Origin: Pseudomonadales bacterium
GTDB taxonomy: Bacteria > Pseudomonadota > Gammaproteobacteria > Pseudomonadales > Azotimanducaceae
DNA: 64,000 bases
NCBI GenBank assembly: GCA_028285415.1
Contig: JANQPF010000009.1
Location: 1,054,001-1,118,000 of the forward strand
Direction of reading: 5' to 3'
Shown here: piece by piece, positions 3,905 through 16,411 of the stretch
Layout: the number at the start of each line of letters is the position of its first letter
Numbering within the stretch: position 1 is the first letter of the stretch
The notes under the pieces: model-generated
Told to the model about the DNA's origin: nothing
What the model saw: only the letters and a program-made list of their open reading frames with translations
Databases searched by the model: none
Position numbers and translations under genes: made by a program

Positions 3905-5257
3905 TCAGGGTTTGATCCCCTCTATGTAGTCATCGATCAGCTCGTGGTAGCGGCGGATACGGAGCTCCTGATTGGCAAGATAGACACCCTTGAAGCCGCG
4001 TGAGCGAAAGCCGCGCTGCTGGGTGACGAAGACCCGTACGTCGTCTTCGATCGCGGGACCAATGGACGTTTCCCCACCATAGGTGAGCATGCGCTTCTCG
4101 ACTTCACCGCTATCGCTGACTTCACCTTCACCATCAACCGCGCCCCGCTCGAGGCCTGCCTCAATCGAGGCGGGACTGGCGTACCACCAGTTGTCGAAAA
4201 GACACTGCTCGGGGTCGCTGCGATGCGGACGCGCGCGCAGGAAATGAAACCCGTCCGACCAGATGGATACCGCAAAGTTGGGAAACAGCGTGTAGTGGAA
4301 GGCATCCGTAAACTGCTCGTCCGGTATGCTCGCGTAGTGGCTGTAGCCTTTCTCCGGTCCCAGCCGGCGTTTGGCTTCCTGCACCGCTCCACGGGTATCT
4401 TCAGGCCGGCCTTTGAAATCTTCCGGGTCGAGATCCCAGTAGCGCAGCTGGCTGGCGAGGGGCTCGAGAATATTGCCTTCCTTGTCCGTTGCACCCACCC
4501 CGTAGCCACCTTCCATGATCATGCGGTTGTGGCCTTCGTTGGAGAGATCGAACCGCGTTTCCTTGAAGTAGGTGTTGATGTTGCCGCGAATCTCCTTACG
4601 GTTCGTATCCGTCGTCGCACCCATGTGCACGGTCGGCACGTGGTAAGACTCGTTGAAATTGTCGAGCACCACTTTCCAGTTGCACGGCAGCCACATCGTG
4701 TTGGCCATGGTGCGCTTCCAGGTATGAATTTCGCGTGCTTCCCACTCGTCCCAGATCGGGCCGAGAAACTCCTTCAGGCTGACGCATTCGGTGTCCATGT
4801 TGATCCAGATGAAGCCGGCGAAAGTCTCGCAGGCAACCTCTTGCAAACGCACCTTGCCGCAGGGATTCCCCTCGGCAAAGTCTTCCCGATCCGGCGCAAA
4901 ATTGAGCTCACCGTCCGGCATGAACGCCCAGCTGTGGTACTTACAGACAAATCGTTTGACCGTGCCTTTGTCGTCCTCGACGAGCGGATTGCCGCGGTGC
5001 TGACAGACGTTGTAGAAGGCTTTGACGCCCCCATCCTGCTGGCGAACCATGAGGATCTCCTCATTGCCCACCGGCTCCATCTGCCAGTCACCCGGGTTAG
5101 GCAGTTCGGATTCACGTCCGAGCAGCAGCCAGACCTTGGTCCACATACCTTCCCACTCGTTCTCCATGAACTCCCTGGAGGTATAGCGGAATCCTTCGAG
5201 CTTGGAGTTCCCGGTTTTCTGCTCCGGGTAACTTTCGATTTGACGCACTTCAGCCAT
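3905..5257 (-). CDS. Rieske aromatic ring-hydroxylating oxygenase, alpha subunit
   Basis: A 450-residue protein of the usual length for the large subunit. The Rieske [2Fe-2S] ligands are Cys85-x-His87 and Cys105-x2-His108. The mononuclear iron site is in DNFNESYHVPTVH (His206 and His211, with the bridging acidic residue just before). It would use O2 and electrons from a separate reductase to hydroxylate or demethylate an aromatic or quaternary-amine substrate; the substrate cannot be read from sequence. No ferredoxin, reductase or beta-subunit gene is adjacent. ATG 5257 is chosen over GTG 5269 because GAGGTG lies 4 bases before it. Confidence 0.93.
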   Translation of the reverse strand: MAEVRQIESYPEQKTGNSKLEGFRYTSREFMENEWEGMWTKVWLLLGRESELPNPGDWQMEPVGNEEILMVRQQDGGVKAFYNVCQHRGNPLVEDDKGTVKRFVCKYHSWAFMPDGELNFAPDREDFAEGNPCGKVRLQEVACETFAGFIWINMDTECVSLKEFLGPIWDEWEAREIHTWKRTMANTMWLPCNWKVVLDNFNESYHVPTVHMGATTDTNRKEIRGNINTYFKETRFDLSNEGHNRMIMEGGYGVGATDKEGNILEPLASQLRYWDLDPEDFKGRPEDTRGAVQEAKRRLGPEKGYSHYASIPDEQFTDAFHYTLFPNFAVSIWSDGFHFLRARPHRSDPEQCLFDNWWYASPASIEAGLERGAVDGEGEVSDSGEVEKRMLTYGGETSIGPAIEDDVRVFVTQQRGFRSRGFKGVYLANQELRIRRYHELIDDYIEGIKP

Positions 5258-5495
5258 CGTGCACCTCACCCCTGAAATTTGTATTGCGTTACATATTTTG
5301 GCACCAGAATGGCGCTCGTGACAATGCCAAGCCGCCGCGGATCGGGTTGGTCAGACAGAACCAGAGGACGCGGCGGGTCGACCTGGGTACACCATGCAAT
5401 CCCCAAAGGTGCACCTGACGCTACCCCACCGAGCTTTCTGGCGGGCGGAGGCGCCGTCAGTACGCTCACCGATCTTCGAGTTATGGGAGATTCTG

Positions 5496-11459: not shown

Positions 11460-11612
11460 ATGAAACATAGACAAAACCCCCTCGAACGCCGGCGCAGCGT
11501 CGCCATCGCCGCGCGCATGGCGCAACCCCGTCGCGATACCCGCATTGCCGCGGTCGCCGCTGCTGCCGTCGTCACCCTCTACGCGGTGCTCATCAGCTGG
11601 CTGCTGATGTGA
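11460..11612 (+). CDS. Small single-pass membrane protein (50 aa)
   Basis: A 50-residue open frame beginning ATG AAA CAT and ending TGA at 11610. The first half is basic (five Arg within residues 9-24). The second half is one hydrophobic helix (about residues 29-49) ending in Trp-Leu-Leu-Met. It ends 7 bases before the photolyase-like gene and follows the AT-rich promoter, so it would be the first gene of that transcript. No family is recognised. No strong ribosome site is visible, which lowers confidence. Confidence 0.5.
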   Translation: MKHRQNPLERRRSVAIAARMAQPRRDTRIAAVAAAAVVTLYAVLISWLLM

Positions 11613-11619
11613 TTGCCGT

Positions 11620-12852
11620 ATGACGACGTGGTGCCCTTCTCGCGTCGCCGGCCTCGCTCAGCTGCAGCGCTTTCTGCCGCATGCGGGCCGCGACTACCGC
11701 AAGCACCGCAACTTCGACAACGGGCCGGCGGACCGCAGCAACGTCTCACTCCTGTCGCCCTACATTCGCCACCGTCTGGTGCACGAGCAGGAAGTCATCA
11801 GCGCGACGCTCCAGGAACACAGCCTGGTTGCCGCGGAAAAGTTCATCGACGAAGTGTTCTGGCGCACGTACTGGCAGGGCTGGCTGGAACACCGCCCGCA
11901 GGTCTGGCATCGCTATCTGGAAGACGTGCGCTGCCTGAGCGAGCGCCTCACCGCGCACAATCCTCTGACGCGGCGCTACAGTGCGGCGACTACCGGCACC
12001 ACAGGCATCGGTCCGTTCGACACGTGGACCCGGGAGCTCATCCAGACCGGCTACCTGCACAACCACGCCCGCATGTGGTACGCGAGCATCTGGATATTCA
12101 CCCTCGAGCTGCCCTGGCAGCTGGGTGCTGACTTCTTTCTACGTCATCTGCTGGATGGCGACCCGGCATCGAACACCCTCTCGTGGCGCTGGGTTGCGGG
12201 CCTGCACACTCGCGGCAAAACGTACCTCGCGACACCGGACAACATCACCCACTACGCCCAGCGCCGGTTCTCCGAGCCACAGGCGCTGCATGGCATCGAG
12301 AGCCTGGCAGAATCCGCCCCACCCTGCCGCGAACCGGCGACGGACAACATCCAGCCCATCAGCTGGCCGCCCGACATCACAATCGGGGGCCGCGTCGGTC
12401 TACTGGTTACTCTGGAAGACCTGTCGCTCGACCTCCCGTTCACGCCAACCGCGGTCGCCGGCCTGCCATCGCGCGCCATGCCCGATCTTCCCGTTGCAGA
12501 CACGGTCATGCAGTTTCGACGCAAAGCGCTCGAGGATGCCATGCAACGCGCAGCGTCCGCCTGGCCAGACGCCGCCGTCAGCACGGTCGACCCGGATCAG
12601 CTGATCGCCTGGGCACGGCAACACCGGCTCGACACCATCGTTACGGGATACACGCCTCAAGGCTTTGTACAACAGGACGTCTCACGGCTGCGCCGCGCTG
12701 CGGTCGATGCCGGCCTCGACTGGCAGACCCACCTCCACCGCTATGATCGCCTCGTCTGGCCGCACACGCAGAAAGGCTTTCATCACCTGCGCAAGCGCAT
12801 ACCCGAACTCGTCGCCGAGCTCACCCAGCTGCCGTTACAGTACAGCGCCTGA
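11620..12852 (+). CDS. Photolyase/cryptochrome-like FAD-binding protein with permuted domain order
   Basis: A 410-residue protein. Residues of about 35-215 are the FAD-binding (helical) domain of photolyases. Visible elements are SNVSLLSPYIRHRL, FWRTYWQGWL, TGIGPFDTW, GYLHNHARMWYAS, and LDGDPASNTLSWRWVAG. The alpha/beta antenna domain that normally precedes it is absent. Instead, about residues 250-398 look like that domain placed at the C-terminus: a GLLVTLEDLSL strand, a helix, LDTIVTGYTP, and HRYDRLVWPHTQKGFHHLRK. A role in light sensing or DNA photorepair is inferred. The 3' end overlaps the convergent photolyase gene by 32 bases. Confidence 0.82.
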   Translation: MTTWCPSRVAGLAQLQRFLPHAGRDYRKHRNFDNGPADRSNVSLLSPYIRHRLVHEQEVISATLQEHSLVAAEKFIDEVFWRTYWQGWLEHRPQVWHRYLEDVRCLSERLTAHNPLTRRYSAATTGTTGIGPFDTWTRELIQTGYLHNHARMWYASIWIFTLELPWQLGADFFLRHLLDGDPASNTLSWRWVAGLHTRGKTYLATPDNITHYAQRRFSEPQALHGIESLAESAPPCREPATDNIQPISWPPDITIGGRVGLLVTLEDLSLDLPFTPTAVAGLPSRAMPDLPVADTVMQFRRKALEDAMQRAASAWPDAAVSTVDPDQLIAWARQHRLDTIVTGYTPQGFVQQDVSRLRRAAVDAGLDWQTHLHRYDRLVWPHTQKGFHHLRKRIPELVAELTQLPLQYSA

Positions 12853-14311
12853 CAAAGTCGTCCGCTGCGGCAAATATTCGCTCCCGTCGCGCACCGTCCA
12901 ACCGGTCGACACCCGACGCCATGGCGGCAAGCCGCGGGTTACGCCGGAGCTCCTCCCGATTGTTCTCAATGAACCGCCAGTACAGACCATCCATCACGTC
13001 GCACCAGGGCCCGCGCGCATAGTCACTCATCTTCAAGATGTAGTTAGCGCCGCAAATGTAAGGCTTGGTGGCAAACACACCGCCATCGCTCGTCATACCC
13101 ATGCCAAAAACGTTTGGCGCCATGACCCAGGGATAGGCGTCCACGTAGTGGGTCATGAAATAATCGTAAACCTCGCGCGGGTGCACGCCGCACAAATTCA
13201 TGAGGTTACTAACCACCATCAGACGCTCGATATGGTGGTTCCATGCCCACGCCTTGTGGTTGGCAATCGCAAGATCGAGCGGCGCCAGGCCCGTATCGCC
13301 GCGGTGCCAGTGCGGCGTCAGGCGGCGCGAATGCCTGCGCACATTGCTGCGTCCAAGGTGCGGGTATCTATCGTAGACACCTCGCACGAATTCACGCCAG
13401 CCAACAAGCTGACGCACGAACCCTTCAAGGTCGTTCAACGGCACGCTACGATTCTCGGCAAACTCGAGGGTACGTGCGAGCACCTCCGCCGGGGTAATGA
13501 GACCCAGATTGAGCAGCGGTGATAACGTGCTATGAAACAGGGTTGCCGAGCGCTCTGTCATGGCGTCTTCGTAAGTACCAAAGCCGACCAGACGTTCTTC
13601 CAGAAAGCGACTCAACCAGGCCAGCGCACCGCGGCGTGTGACCGGCAACCAGAGTCCGGCGGCCTCTCCAGGGTTGCCCGCAAACCGCTCCTCCACCTCA
13701 CGAAAGGCCGCCCGCGTGAGCTCGCTATGCCCAACCGTTGGCAGGCCCGGCAGCGCCTGACGCTTCGGCACCTTCCTGCGATTCATCTCGTCGAAACTCC
13801 AGCGCCCGCCGAAAGGGTCGCCGTTCTCGTCCAGCAGCAGATCCAACCTGCGGCGCTGGAGGCGATAAAAGTCCGCCATGCGCACGCTCTTTTTCCCTGC
13901 AGCGAACGCCTCGAACTCGGGCTTTGACGTGATGAACCCCGGGTCCGCCACTTCCCGCCACTCGAGCTTCTCGGCGGCGGCAAGGTCGGCAAGGCGCTTG
14001 CGCAGACCATGATCGGTGACAGTAAAAGTCAGCAGCGTCGTCGCCCCGGCAGCATGTGCCACTTCCGCGACATGATTGAGCATCGAGGTCTTCGCAGACA
14101 GCGGCGCGTAGCGTACCTCGTGCCCCGCTTTGCCGAGCGCCTGCGCATGCTCCCGCATGGCCGCCAGCACGAGGGCAAGCTTCTGCTTGTGGTAGCGGTA
14201 TCGCCTGCAGAGCGTCTCGTCCTCCACCATCACGATGGGCACGCCGCGCCATGCTTGGAGATGCGCGGGTGGATACAGGTGGTTGGCAGGCAGTAGAAAA
14301 ACCGCTTGCAC
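12821..14311 (-). CDS. Cryptochrome/photolyase family protein (COG3046, bacterial (6-4)-type)
   Basis: A 496-residue protein with an N-terminal Rossmann-like domain (VFLLPANHLYPP) and a C-terminal FAD domain (NHHIERLMVVSNLMNLCG, MAPNVFGMGMTSDGG, KPYICGANYILKMSDY). This layout is that of the deoxyribodipyrimidine photolyase-related family, whose members include iron-sulfur photolyases such as PhrB. Near the usual cluster site only three Cys are seen (in NLCG, YICG and PWCD) and the spacing differs, so a [4Fe-4S] cluster is doubtful. The start is GTG, 2 bases after the nei stop, in a tight operon. Confidence 0.88.
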   Translation of the reverse strand: MQAVFLLPANHLYPPAHLQAWRGVPIVMVEDETLCRRYRYHKQKLALVLAAMREHAQALGKAGHEVRYAPLSAKTSMLNHVAEVAHAAGATTLLTFTVTDHGLRKRLADLAAAEKLEWREVADPGFITSKPEFEAFAAGKKSVRMADFYRLQRRRLDLLLDENGDPFGGRWSFDEMNRRKVPKRQALPGLPTVGHSELTRAAFREVEERFAGNPGEAAGLWLPVTRRGALAWLSRFLEERLVGFGTYEDAMTERSATLFHSTLSPLLNLGLITPAEVLARTLEFAENRSVPLNDLEGFVRQLVGWREFVRGVYDRYPHLGRSNVRRHSRRLTPHWHRGDTGLAPLDLAIANHKAWAWNHHIERLMVVSNLMNLCGVHPREVYDYFMTHYVDAYPWVMAPNVFGMGMTSDGGVFATKPYICGANYILKMSDYARGPWCDVMDGLYWRFIENNREELRRNPRLAAMASGVDRLDGARRERIFAAADDFVRRCTVTAAG

Positions 14312-14313
14312 GC

Positions 14314-15138
14314 TCAGGCCTCCGGCTGACAGGTCGGACAGAGGTAAATGCGCCGGGAGCCCATGGTCTCCCGGCGAATGGCCGTGTCGCAGGCATAGCA
14401 GGGTTCACCCGCACGGGCAAAGACGGCATGCCGGTAGGCACCGTAGCTGAGACCCTGGCGTTTGAGCTTGCTGGCTCTGGCATCCGGATTGGTGACGCCA
14501 CCGGTCCGCAGCGAACGGCGGGTAATCACGAGGGTGGAACGCGCCAGGGCGCCAAGGTCACCGCGTCCGAGATCCCGCGGCCGGCGCGCGGGATGCAGCC
14601 CCGCGTCAAAGAGAATTTCCGAGCGCAGGTAGTTGCCAATCCCGGCGACAAAATGCTGGTCCAGGTAAAGACTCGACAGGCGTCTACCGGCAAATGCGGG
14701 ATCGCGGAGTCGCGCTGCGATGTCACGCCAGTGAACATTCTGCGCCAATGCCTCGGGCCCGAGCCTGGCAAGGTAGCTGTGATGTGCGAGACCCGCCTCG
14801 TCCAGCACCTCAATGTCCGACGCGCTGTAGAGCAGCGCGCTGTGCGCGGCCGTGTGCAGCGCCGCCCGCAGCGTGCGAGCTGTCGCCGGTAGTTGCCCGC
14901 GCTTTCTGACATACCAACGGCCGTAGAGCTGATTGTGGGAATACAAATACAAGCCATTGTCGAAGTGGGTGACCACCGCCTTGCCGCGAGCCTCTACCCG
15001 ACGCACCCGGGAACCGCTCAGCACCGGCCCGTAGTTGTGCAGTCGCGGCTGCGTGAATTCCACCGCCTCAACCACCCGATCGTCGAGCACCTCACCCAGG
15101 CGCGCTGCAGCGCGCCAGATTTCCGGACCCTCCGGCAC
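14314..15138 (-). CDS. nei: Endonuclease VIII-like DNA glycosylase/AP lyase (Fpg/Nei family)
   Basis: A 274-residue base-excision-repair enzyme. The N-terminal PEGPEI contains the catalytic Pro2 and Glu3. The conserved Lys is in ARGKAVV. The helix-two-turn-helix (AGIGNYLRSEILFDAGLHP) is present, and a C-terminal zinc finger has two CxxC pairs (CYAC and CPTC). It excises oxidised pyrimidines and nicks the abasic site. The start is GTG, 2 bases beyond the MerR stop. Translation is probably coupled with the regulator upstream and the photolyase downstream, giving a combined photoreactivation and oxidative-repair operon. Confidence 0.92.
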   Translation of the reverse strand: MPEGPEIWRAAARLGEVLDDRVVEAVEFTQPRLHNYGPVLSGSRVRRVEARGKAVVTHFDNGLYLYSHNQLYGRWYVRKRGQLPATARTLRAALHTAAHSALLYSASDIEVLDEAGLAHHSYLARLGPEALAQNVHWRDIAARLRDPAFAGRRLSSLYLDQHFVAGIGNYLRSEILFDAGLHPARRPRDLGRGDLGALARSTLVITRRSLRTGGVTNPDARASKLKRQGLSYGAYRHAVFARAGEPCYACDTAIRRETMGSRRIYLCPTCQPEA

Positions 15139-15140
15139 CG

Positions 15141-16043
15141 CTACTTGCGTATGGAGAGGGAGATGCCGTCCGCCGCAGCGACGGCAATGAGCGCTTCTTC
15201 GAAGAGCGCTCTGGCACGCGCCGAGATTTCACCGAGGCGTTGGTGCAACGCCTGCTCGTCGGGATCCGTATCGACGCACTCTCTGCTGTATGTCTCGAAT
15301 GCCGTGATGTCCATCAGGAGTTTGGCAATGTGGTTGGGGCACTCACATTCGAGCCCCGGACTCAGCGCGGCCACCCTGGCGAGCTCCTCGTCGCTGAACC
15401 GTTGGGCGCGCGGGGCCGGTGGTTCGCCAGTCGTCACAGGCTCGAGCAGCCGTAGAAGACTGGACTCGCCCAGCGGTCCATGCACCGGCACAACGTCTGC
15501 GTCTCGAAGTCGTACCAACGTTTCGCTGGCGGCAAACTTGTAGACCACCAGCAGGTGGGCCATCTGCGCGCGCCGCGCTGTCAGCGTTTCGACAAGCTCC
15601 GGCGGCAGCGTATTGGACTCGACTATGTAGGTCGTTTCCGCGTCCAGCTGCGCGGTCTCGGCCAGCCACTCATGAATCTCGTGAGAAAACCGGGACACAA
15701 CCTGGGGCAATCCAGTGAGCAAACGGGAGACGTTCGGGCCGACCAACGCAATGCGTTGCGCCTTGAGGCGCGACGTATCGGCCGCGTGCAATCCCGCAAG
15801 CTCCTCCAGCGCGTCGAGATCGAGCCCGGCAAGATGACCGAGCGAATGACCGCTCGCCACCAGCTGTTTGACCAGGCGCAGCGTCTCGACGTGTTCCTCG
15901 GTATATACCCGCCGCCCGGTCTCTGAGCGCACAGGCACCGCAATGCCGTGCCGACTTTCCCATTTGCGCAGCGTATGCGCGGGAATTTGCGTCAGACGCG
16001 CGACAGCGCCGATGGACAATTGCTGCATGTTCATTCCGTACAT
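15141..16043 (-). CDS. MerR family transcriptional regulator of the photolyase cluster
   Basis: About 300 residues. The N-terminal winged helix is typical of MerR (SIGAVARLTQIPAHTLRKWE, then GRRVYTEEHVETLRLVKQL). The C-terminal part has the layout of the CarH/LitR/BluR effector region but shows no cobalamin-binding ExH or DxH motif, so a B12 photoreceptor function is not supported. Starts at 16043, 16034 and 16028 are all possible. GGAA precedes 16028, and the motif at 16051-16066 lies just upstream. I infer that it represses its own operon and the divergent genes, perhaps in response to light or singlet oxygen. Confidence 0.85.
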   Translation of the reverse strand: MYGMNMQQLSIGAVARLTQIPAHTLRKWESRHGIAVPVRSETGRRVYTEEHVETLRLVKQLVASGHSLGHLAGLDLDALEELAGLHAADTSRLKAQRIALVGPNVSRLLTGLPQVVSRFSHEIHEWLAETAQLDAETTYIVESNTLPPELVETLTARRAQMAHLLVVYKFAASETLVRLRDADVVPVHGPLGESSLLRLLEPVTTGEPPAPRAQRFSDEELARVAALSPGLECECPNHIAKLLMDITAFETYSRECVDTDPDEQALHQRLGEISARARALFEEALIAVAAADGISLSIRK

Positions 16044-16050
16044 GAAATTT

Positions 16051-16066
16051 GTCTCATTATTGTCCA
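16051..16066 (-). promoter_or_regulatory. Putative MerR operator upstream of the regulator gene
   Basis: On the minus strand this reads TGGACAATAATGAGAC. It matches 14 of 16 positions of TGGACAATTTTGAGAC at 16739-16754 in the divergent promoter 0.7 kb away. Its place 8 bases before the first possible regulator start suggests autoregulation. Confidence 0.45.
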
Positions 16067-16090
16067 GGCGCCGCGGGTTGAACAGAGAAC

Positions 16091-16411
16091 TCAAGTCTGC
16101 GGAATCCAGGCGTTGCACCAGCCGGGTCCGGCAACCAGCTTACCCGGGATTGCTGAGCAGGTGCCGTGTCCATCAGCCTGCGCCTGATAGAGGCCGCAGT
16201 TGCTGCAGAATTGCGCGGCACCGGCTGCACCCGCGCGCTTTGGATACTGGGTGACGTCAACGTCATTCGCATCGATCTTGTAACCGAGCGCGATTGCAAT
16301 CGGGTCGTCTTCGGTAAGCCGCGGCTGCGTCGCTACGGCGGGGACCGTCACCACCGCTGCCGCGACACCGGCGGAGGTCTTGATGATGAAGTTTCTGCGA
16401 TTTGTGGCCAT
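16091..16411 (-). CDS. High-potential iron-sulfur protein (HiPIP), Tat-exported
   Basis: A 106-residue protein. The N-terminus carries NRRNFIIKTSAGVAAA, a twin-arginine-type signal. The mature part has the HiPIP pattern of four Cys (FCSNCGLYQ, HGTCSAIPG and GWCNAW) that binds a [4Fe-4S] cluster, and TEDDPIAIALGY is typical of the family. It should be a periplasmic single-electron carrier. The start at 16411 has an AGGAGG site 8 bases upstream. It lies between the small unknown gene (17-base gap) and the MerR gene, so it belongs to the photolyase cluster. Export makes direct reduction of a cytoplasmic photolyase unlikely. Confidence 0.92.
   Translation of the reverse strand: MATNRRNFIIKTSAGVAAAVVTVPAVATQPRLTEDDPIAIALGYKIDANDVDVTQYPKRAGAAGAAQFCSNCGLYQAQADGHGTCSAIPGKLVAGPGWCNAWIPQT

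Follow-up and report, generated by a model that had tools for sequence, protein, structure and literature searches.

A probable NewPHL-type photolyase with inverted domain order in a Pseudomonadales bacterium

The photolyase gene, its surroundings and its relatives

The window analysed here is a stretch of 64,000 nucleotides from a contig (JANQPF010000009.1) of a Pseudomonadales bacterium. On its forward strand, positions 11620–12852 hold an ATG-initiated open reading frame with full-length homologues, which encodes a NewPHL-like photolyase of 410 amino acids with inverted domain order. Three parts can be distinguished in the protein. A FAD-binding helical (catalytic) domain occupies residues 3–229 (11626–12306, forward strand) and is delimited by a Pfam match, by profile alignment and by conservation that extends up to L229. 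It is followed by a poorly conserved linker (residues 230–255; 12307–12384, forward strand), where the predicted confidence of blocks of ten residues between about 231 and 250 is lower (pLDDT of 67 and 80), and by a C-terminal alpha/beta domain (residues 256–402; 12385–12825, forward strand), assigned as a relocated antenna-type domain by AlphaFold2, Foldseek and profile comparison with canonical N-terminal domains.

The open frame of the photolyase gene runs from position 11608, directly after an in-frame stop codon, and the first ATG, GTG or TTG codon within it is the ATG at 11620. Because of this stop and the lack of any earlier start codon, no in-frame antenna domain lies upstream, which bears out the claim of the first-pass annotation that none precedes the FAD motifs. 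Of the two marks of class I/III photolyases, FAD_binding_7 with conserved catalytic residues is present in the protein, and PF00875 ahead of the FAD domain is absent, as judged from a Pfam search and from the upstream frame. A distance of 7 bases separates the photolyase ATG from the stop of a small open frame on the same strand (about 11460–11612), which has the hydrophobic end AAVVTLYAVLISWLLM and could encode a small membrane protein on the photolyase transcript.

Searches against Pfam matched the protein to FAD_binding_7 (PF03441) alone, in the N-terminal part where the first-pass annotation had suggested looking for it (residues 75–203, E 1.1e-22); the profile was matched only to position 127 of 203. 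Compared to solved structures, residues 6–203 align with approximately 205–400 of canonical photolyases, and columns 3–221 of the family profile (residues 3–225) align with canonical columns 197–411, so that the FAD half begins at the very start of the protein. The FAD part is thus indeed N-terminal, as had been proposed, but it starts from about residue 3 rather than near residue 35. Among 99 homologues, which remained after sequences at least 90% identical had been dropped, E78, W81, N148, M152, W166, W189 and W191 are invariant (100%) and N185 is conserved at 99%; we take their counterparts in the Escherichia coli enzyme to be, by alignment and in the same order, E274, W277, N341, M345, W359, W382, W384 and N378. 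No conserved cysteine column was found in the family, the maximum being 48 of the 99 members.

The gene is convergent with that of a 6-4-type photolyase (12821–14311, reverse strand; DPRP and FAD_binding_7 in Pfam), and the 3' ends of the two overlap at 12821–12852. Towards the C-terminal end of the 6-4-type protein (GPWCDVMDGLYWRF) the usual Fe-S cysteine pattern is, by eye, presumably absent. In the direction of reverse-strand transcription, a gene for a MerR-family regulator (15141–16118; the MerR DNA-binding part was recognised, at a score below every NCBIfam cut-off) comes first, followed back to back by one for an endonuclease VIII (Nei)-type DNA glycosylase (14314–15138; 312 bits, against an NCBIfam endonuclease VIII cut-off of 252) and then by the 6-4-type photolyase gene. 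Reverse-strand positions 12821–16118 possibly constitute a light- or UV-responsive repair operon, and this neighbourhood of repair genes fits a role of the FAD-first gene in DNA repair.

In order to describe the surroundings of other family members, 85 further loci were inspected within 5 kb of the FAD-first gene. A canonical-order photolyase/cryptochrome gene was present in 11 of them, including L042, L055, L085, L090, L100 and L115; the one in L100 is best matched by the class I and DASH families of NCBIfam, below all cut-offs. Genes similar by eye to the window neighbours were noted in eight loci for the 6-4-type photolyase and in six for the Nei glycosylase. Several of the clusters into which the neighbours were grouped seem to be antisense shadows of real genes, and only named neighbours were used. 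In four annotated alphaproteobacterial plasmid loci (L031, L033, L034 and L035), AarF/UbiB kinase genes are located near the FAD-first gene in three cases and DUF3429 genes in two.

Of the 58 related genomes searched, 37 belong to the same genus, and 19 of these (its own included) contain a full-length match to the protein; one further gene is divided between two contigs. The other 21, from elsewhere in the order, have no full-length match, and one of them encodes a more distant FAD-first protein. A scan of contigs retrieved at least 583 stretches encoding a relative; in all of the best 80, which were fetched, nearly the whole query was covered, and these belong to Alpha-, Beta- and Gammaproteobacteria, Microbacteriaceae, one member of the Verrucomicrobiia and one Eremiobacterota MAG. 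At 115 loci, 107 open reading frames match at E 1e-20, and 104 of the 107 matches extend past query residue 340. Among 61 genomes of the family to which a Rhodovulum genome belongs, 17 contain full-length matches (18 in all, one of them carrying an internal TGA), and a single fragment was also found. The other matches listed for these 61 genomes lie in frames of at least 472 amino acids, save two short ones (355 and 155 amino acids), and no second FAD-first kind was apparent among them. One family member (L105) was found in a Methylobacterium MAG.

Fold and kinship of the C-terminal half

The full-length protein was modelled with AlphaFold2 from 19 sequences. Mean pLDDT varied from 71.5 to 89.3 among the five models; the best one had a pTM of 0.89, which suggests that the relative placement of the domains is predicted with confidence. 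In the C-terminal half, strands are predicted at residues 259–264, 278–281, 319–322, 339–343 and 367–371 and helices at 294–314, 325–334, 349–363, 374–383 and 387–403, an order that we take to be that of canonical photolyases minus the first helix. When modelled alone (12361–12825, 94 sequences), the domain adopted a Rossmann-like alpha/beta fold with a mean pLDDT of 95.1, in agreement with the first-pass description of the last 150 or so residues. A different fold in this region and an in-frame antenna domain upstream had both been looked for, and neither was found. Residues D376, W380, P381, G386 and F387 are conserved at 95–100% in the 99 homologues.

Comparison of the C-terminal model with the PDB by Foldseek returned 1394 rows (E up to 10), and 27 of the 50 listed were cryptochrome or photolyase chains. 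TM-scores normalised to the query (TMq) were 0.51–0.61 for 26 of these chains and 0.39 for 8ijy, whereas the remaining 23 rows did not exceed 0.46. The E-values were weak (about 1e-3 to 2e-2), and a Usp protein (1jmv) and a PPAT (3k9w) ranked above the first cryptochrome. Taken together, the TM-scores and the E-value ranking assign the predicted fold to the HUP/photolyase type, the best fit by TM-score being to the photolyase domain. Among the 50 matches listed for the full-length model, photolyase chains had TMq values of 0.30–0.43 and mostly covered about 205–275 columns, as would be expected of the FAD half by itself, the table giving column numbers and no ranges; a few rows spanned 280–340 columns with an rmsd of 12–18.

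At the sequence level, a profile of 94 C-terminal domains was compared by hhalign to one of 30 canonical N-terminal domains. The two aligned in the same order (columns 35–144 and 26–134, respectively) with a score of 30.3 (P 3e-4, probability 39.8). Column shuffles of both profiles (60 each) scored at most 20.1, reversed profiles 14.5 and 14.1, a Usp profile 16.4 and a DPRP profile 19.5; as a yardstick, canonical and DPRP domains scored 34.6 against each other. The DRLVWPHTQKGFHHLRK segment (residues 376–392; 12745–12795, forward strand) had been likened to the end of the ordinary N-terminal domain, and its starting part, YDRLVWPH, was aligned there by the profile methods.

Single-domain searches gave less. 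PF00875, which the first-pass annotation had proposed as a query for this region, did not match the C-terminus of the window protein; it matched 3 of the 99 homologous C-terminal domains (best E 0.039) and, over the 58 genomes, fell inside none of the genes of the family among the matches listed. In the same scan an unrelated family, BLH_phosphatase (PF04273), matched 9 of the 99 domains weakly (best E 7e-5), perhaps by chance. A profile of the 99 domains searched against PDB sequences retrieved no photolyase; its matches were weak, the best being to 4pcv (E 0.0034), which we take to be an SDR-like protein.

A clearer signal was obtained with 15 FAD-first proteins from Deinococcus and Actinobacteria, assigned to the short photolyases (SPLs) by their architecture and, by eye, by a Cys motif. 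Their C-termini matched the canonical domain with a probability of 92.2 (P 5.7e-7; 60 shuffles at most 18.5), over 70 columns at the domain start. One FAD-first protein encoded on a Deinococcus plasmid (L206, 2890–4260, forward strand) matches PF00875 itself, with an E-value of 7.2e-4 and 20.0 bits against a curated cut-off of 26.6, and is a bridge from the permuted to the canonical forms. The NewPHL and SPL C-terminal profiles scored 18.2 against each other, with shuffles reaching 19.2; the evidence for their common descent is therefore the FAD-domain tree, together with the separate match of each to the canonical domain.

Domain order was assessed by alignment across the seam between the domains. 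The canonical profile was built from 29 sequences with a recognisable start, taken from 38 sequences under 520 amino acids out of a total of 45. Against the plain canonical profile the window family aligned over columns 3–221 only, with a score of 218.8. When the canonical profile was doubled, the alignment crossed the seam and continued to column 366 (score 237.6), and when only the canonical alpha/beta part was appended behind the FAD part it reached column 376, corresponding to residue 382 (score 237.0). With the appended part shuffled 60 times the score did not exceed 227.8 (mean 219.3), and with this part reversed it was 219.2. The SPL set behaved similarly (239.6, against 217.1 in shuffled and reversed controls alike). 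By profile comparison, each half of the protein is homologous to its canonical counterpart, with the two in exchanged positions, and the alignments support co-linearity of the FAD-then-alpha/beta sequence with a canonical photolyase that has been doubled or extended. The circular permutation of the photolyase fold read from the sequence by the first-pass annotation is therefore supported by the seam-crossing alignment and its shuffled and reversed controls. This support comes from sequence and from the predicted fold, and the permutation would presumably hold in the strict three-dimensional sense.

Origin of the domain order and alternative readings

The first FAD-domain tree contained 68 of the 109 rows prepared. 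All 29 FAD-first rows (15 NewPHL-like, 12 SPL and two of a third type) fell on one side of a branch with a support of 97/90. The same division was recovered in a tree of an overlapping sample (71 rows, 95/90) and, by a quick method, in a tree of 62 rows without the 6-4-type group (SH-aLRT 99). The sample comprised class I-like, cryptochrome-like and 6-4-type proteins, to the exclusion of class II, eukaryotic and reference DASH sequences, and long branches were flagged for FeSBCP_L190 and type3_L207 in the first tree and for type3_L207 in the second, from which L190 was omitted. One change of domain order suffices on these trees, which, being unrooted, give it no direction.

The third FAD-first type is shorter (about 390–400 amino acids). 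It is encoded on a Persicobacter plasmid (L207, 2863–4038, forward strand), where the 3' end of the gene overlaps a canonical-order photolyase/cryptochrome gene (3971–5494, forward strand), and in genome G044, from another family of the order to which the window belongs (L021, 1480–2685, forward strand).

We consider it very probable that the gene at 11620–12852 encodes an inverted-order photolyase, most likely a NewPHL (Phr7-like), and that its C-terminal domain is a homologue of the ordinary N-terminal antenna domain moved behind the FAD domain. What is established here is the order of the domains, the conservation of residues, the fold as predicted, the homology of the moved domain at profile level and the placement of the sampled FAD-first proteins on one side of a branch. 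FAD would be bound in the N-terminal helical domain and, once excited by blue light in its reduced form, would donate an electron that splits cyclobutane pyrimidine dimers (CPDs), the substrate probably being single-stranded or otherwise unpaired DNA. The flavin site is probably closed by the C-terminal domain, packed against the FAD domain, and the protein may well lack an antenna pigment. In the lineage of the FAD-first proteins the alpha/beta domain would have moved behind the FAD domain once; under the opposite root the remaining lineages would instead have shifted it to the front.

On balance we lean towards a single origin of all FAD-first photolyases (NewPHLs, SPLs with or without Fe-S cysteines and the third type), namely from a photolyase with both domains that underwent circular permutation once. 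The 'short' photolyases, described in the parts of the literature available to us as devoid of an alpha/beta domain, appear instead to carry it at the opposite end; in that case they would not represent relics without an antenna domain from near the base of the photolyase/cryptochrome family, whose common ancestor would have possessed both domains under any rooting. If the C-terminal domain of FAD-first photolyases is indeed the same alpha/beta domain, the picture of a short photolyase as ancestor needs rethinking. The family also offers a natural test of the tolerance of photolyases to domain reordering.

A modified version of that ancestor idea, in which the FAD-first arrangement is ancestral and the antenna-first one derived, is unlikely. 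It has been proposed that photolyases and cryptochromes descend from SPLs, and according to the available part of one paper a root among them yields the tree with the fewest changes; the single change of order on our trees, lacking direction, agrees with it as well. Against it, the proposal holds SPLs to be without the alpha/beta domain, a homologue of which is present in them here, and rooting on the antenna-first 6-4/FeS-BCP group makes the FAD-first order derived.

It is improbable that the C-terminal domain is some other HUP/Rossmann domain (of Usp or nucleotidyltransferase type) that was joined in an independent fusion after loss of the antenna domain and resembles the latter only at the superfamily level. 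Such an origin would account for the top Foldseek E-values of 1jmv and 3k9w, for the modest probability of the family's own profile match, and for the lack of a Pfam match in the window C-terminus beside the weak BLH_phosphatase hits in other members. However, the TM-scores clearly favour photolyase and cryptochrome chains over other HUP domains, the Usp profile scored below the shuffle maximum where canonical domains exceeded it, the C-termini of the SPLs on the same side of the tree match the canonical domain, and the seam-crossing alignment outscores all 60 shuffles.

An equally small chance is given to the protein being a cryptochrome-like light sensor instead of a repair enzyme. Two positions depart, in E. 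coli numbering, from a plain class I enzyme: H149 stands at the position of R342, and A123, conserved at 99% in the homologues, at that of the outer triad tryptophan W306. A MerR regulator gene also lies about 2.3 kb away on the opposite strand. The residues aligned with CPD-contacting and catalytic positions are nevertheless almost invariant, the 6-4-type photolyase and endonuclease VIII genes next door argue against a sensor, and NewPHLs are reported, in the available parts of two papers, to repair CPDs (PMC9426592, PMC13274461).

Finally, the lack of an antenna domain at the front could point to a class I photolyase that has been truncated or to a gene in decay. This reading has a negligible probability and was rejected on the strong residue conservation; full-length homologues of the same order are also present in 19 of the 37 genomes of the genus, in 17 of the 61 from the Rhodovulum family and in the best 80 of at least 583 contig stretches.

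Comparison with known photolyase groups

Emmerich 2020 is said to have reported FAD-first photolyases as NewPHLs. With the inverted order already published for these and by Haney 2022, the permutation noticed by the first-pass annotation is right and is not new as a kind, and, taken by itself, the gene represents an ordinary member of that kind. Among the papers listed in searches on permutation, domain order, inverted topology or the Z-domain in photolyases, those judged to treat reordered forms were Haney 2022 and PMC13274461.

The window protein most likely belongs with the NewPHL/Phr7 group, to which it was likened through the published descriptions, because its catalytic-site residues are conserved and conserved cysteines are absent. 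The accessible text of PMC13274461 ascribes an inverted domain topology to NewPHLs or SPLs, describes repair of CPDs in single-stranded DNA by NewPHLs, and names members from Dinoroseobacter, Methylobacterium, Erythrobacter and Rhodospirillum. Characterised NewPHLs include D. shibae A8LJA9 and M. mesophilicum M7YZC8. The window protein shares with NewPHLs an N-terminal catalytic FAD domain and a second domain at the C-terminus, and its family occurs in the same or neighbouring taxonomic groups. The two differ in that NewPHLs have a known activity, whereas the window protein is known as a sequence.

As far as the available portion of Haney 2022 goes (PMC9426592), FAD-first proteins comprise Phr4/5 and Phr6 of Synechococcus/Cyanobium and Phr7 of Prochlorococcus, the last being placed closest to Phr4 and Phr6 in the tree. 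Phr7 is described there as an N-terminal FAD domain followed by a C-terminal 'Z-domain', termed an atypical short photolyase domain, without Fe-S cysteines, and NewPHL/Phr7 proteins are characterised in the parts seen of this paper and of PMC13274461 as CPD photolyases of single-stranded DNA. FAD-first order, a C-terminal domain placed last and the absence of Fe-S cysteines are common to Phr7 and the window protein; the host differs, being cyanobacterial, and the likeness is one of description. Phr4/Phr5 and Phr6 likewise have the FAD domain first and the photolyase domain last, but they carry Fe-S cysteines, which the window family lacks, and according to the same portion are encoded as one or two genes.

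SPLs begin with the FAD domain and, as represented by the Deinococcus and Actinobacteria proteins, fall with the window protein on one side of the FAD-domain tree. An Fe-S cluster is known from only some SPLs, one carrying it being mentioned in the literature as far as it was available. Apart from this cluster, which contrasts with the absence of conserved cysteines in the window family, they differ from the window protein in being described as lacking an alpha/beta domain. They form one of eight groups in the available part of PMC9178010. Identity with Fe-S SPLs or with Phr4–Phr6 was rejected, the four conserved cysteines being absent (at most 48 of 99 members share any cysteine column). With class I CPD photolyases, the window protein has in common the FAD domain and the catalytic-site residues, and it is set apart from them by the antenna-type alpha/beta domain, which those enzymes carry at the N-terminus.
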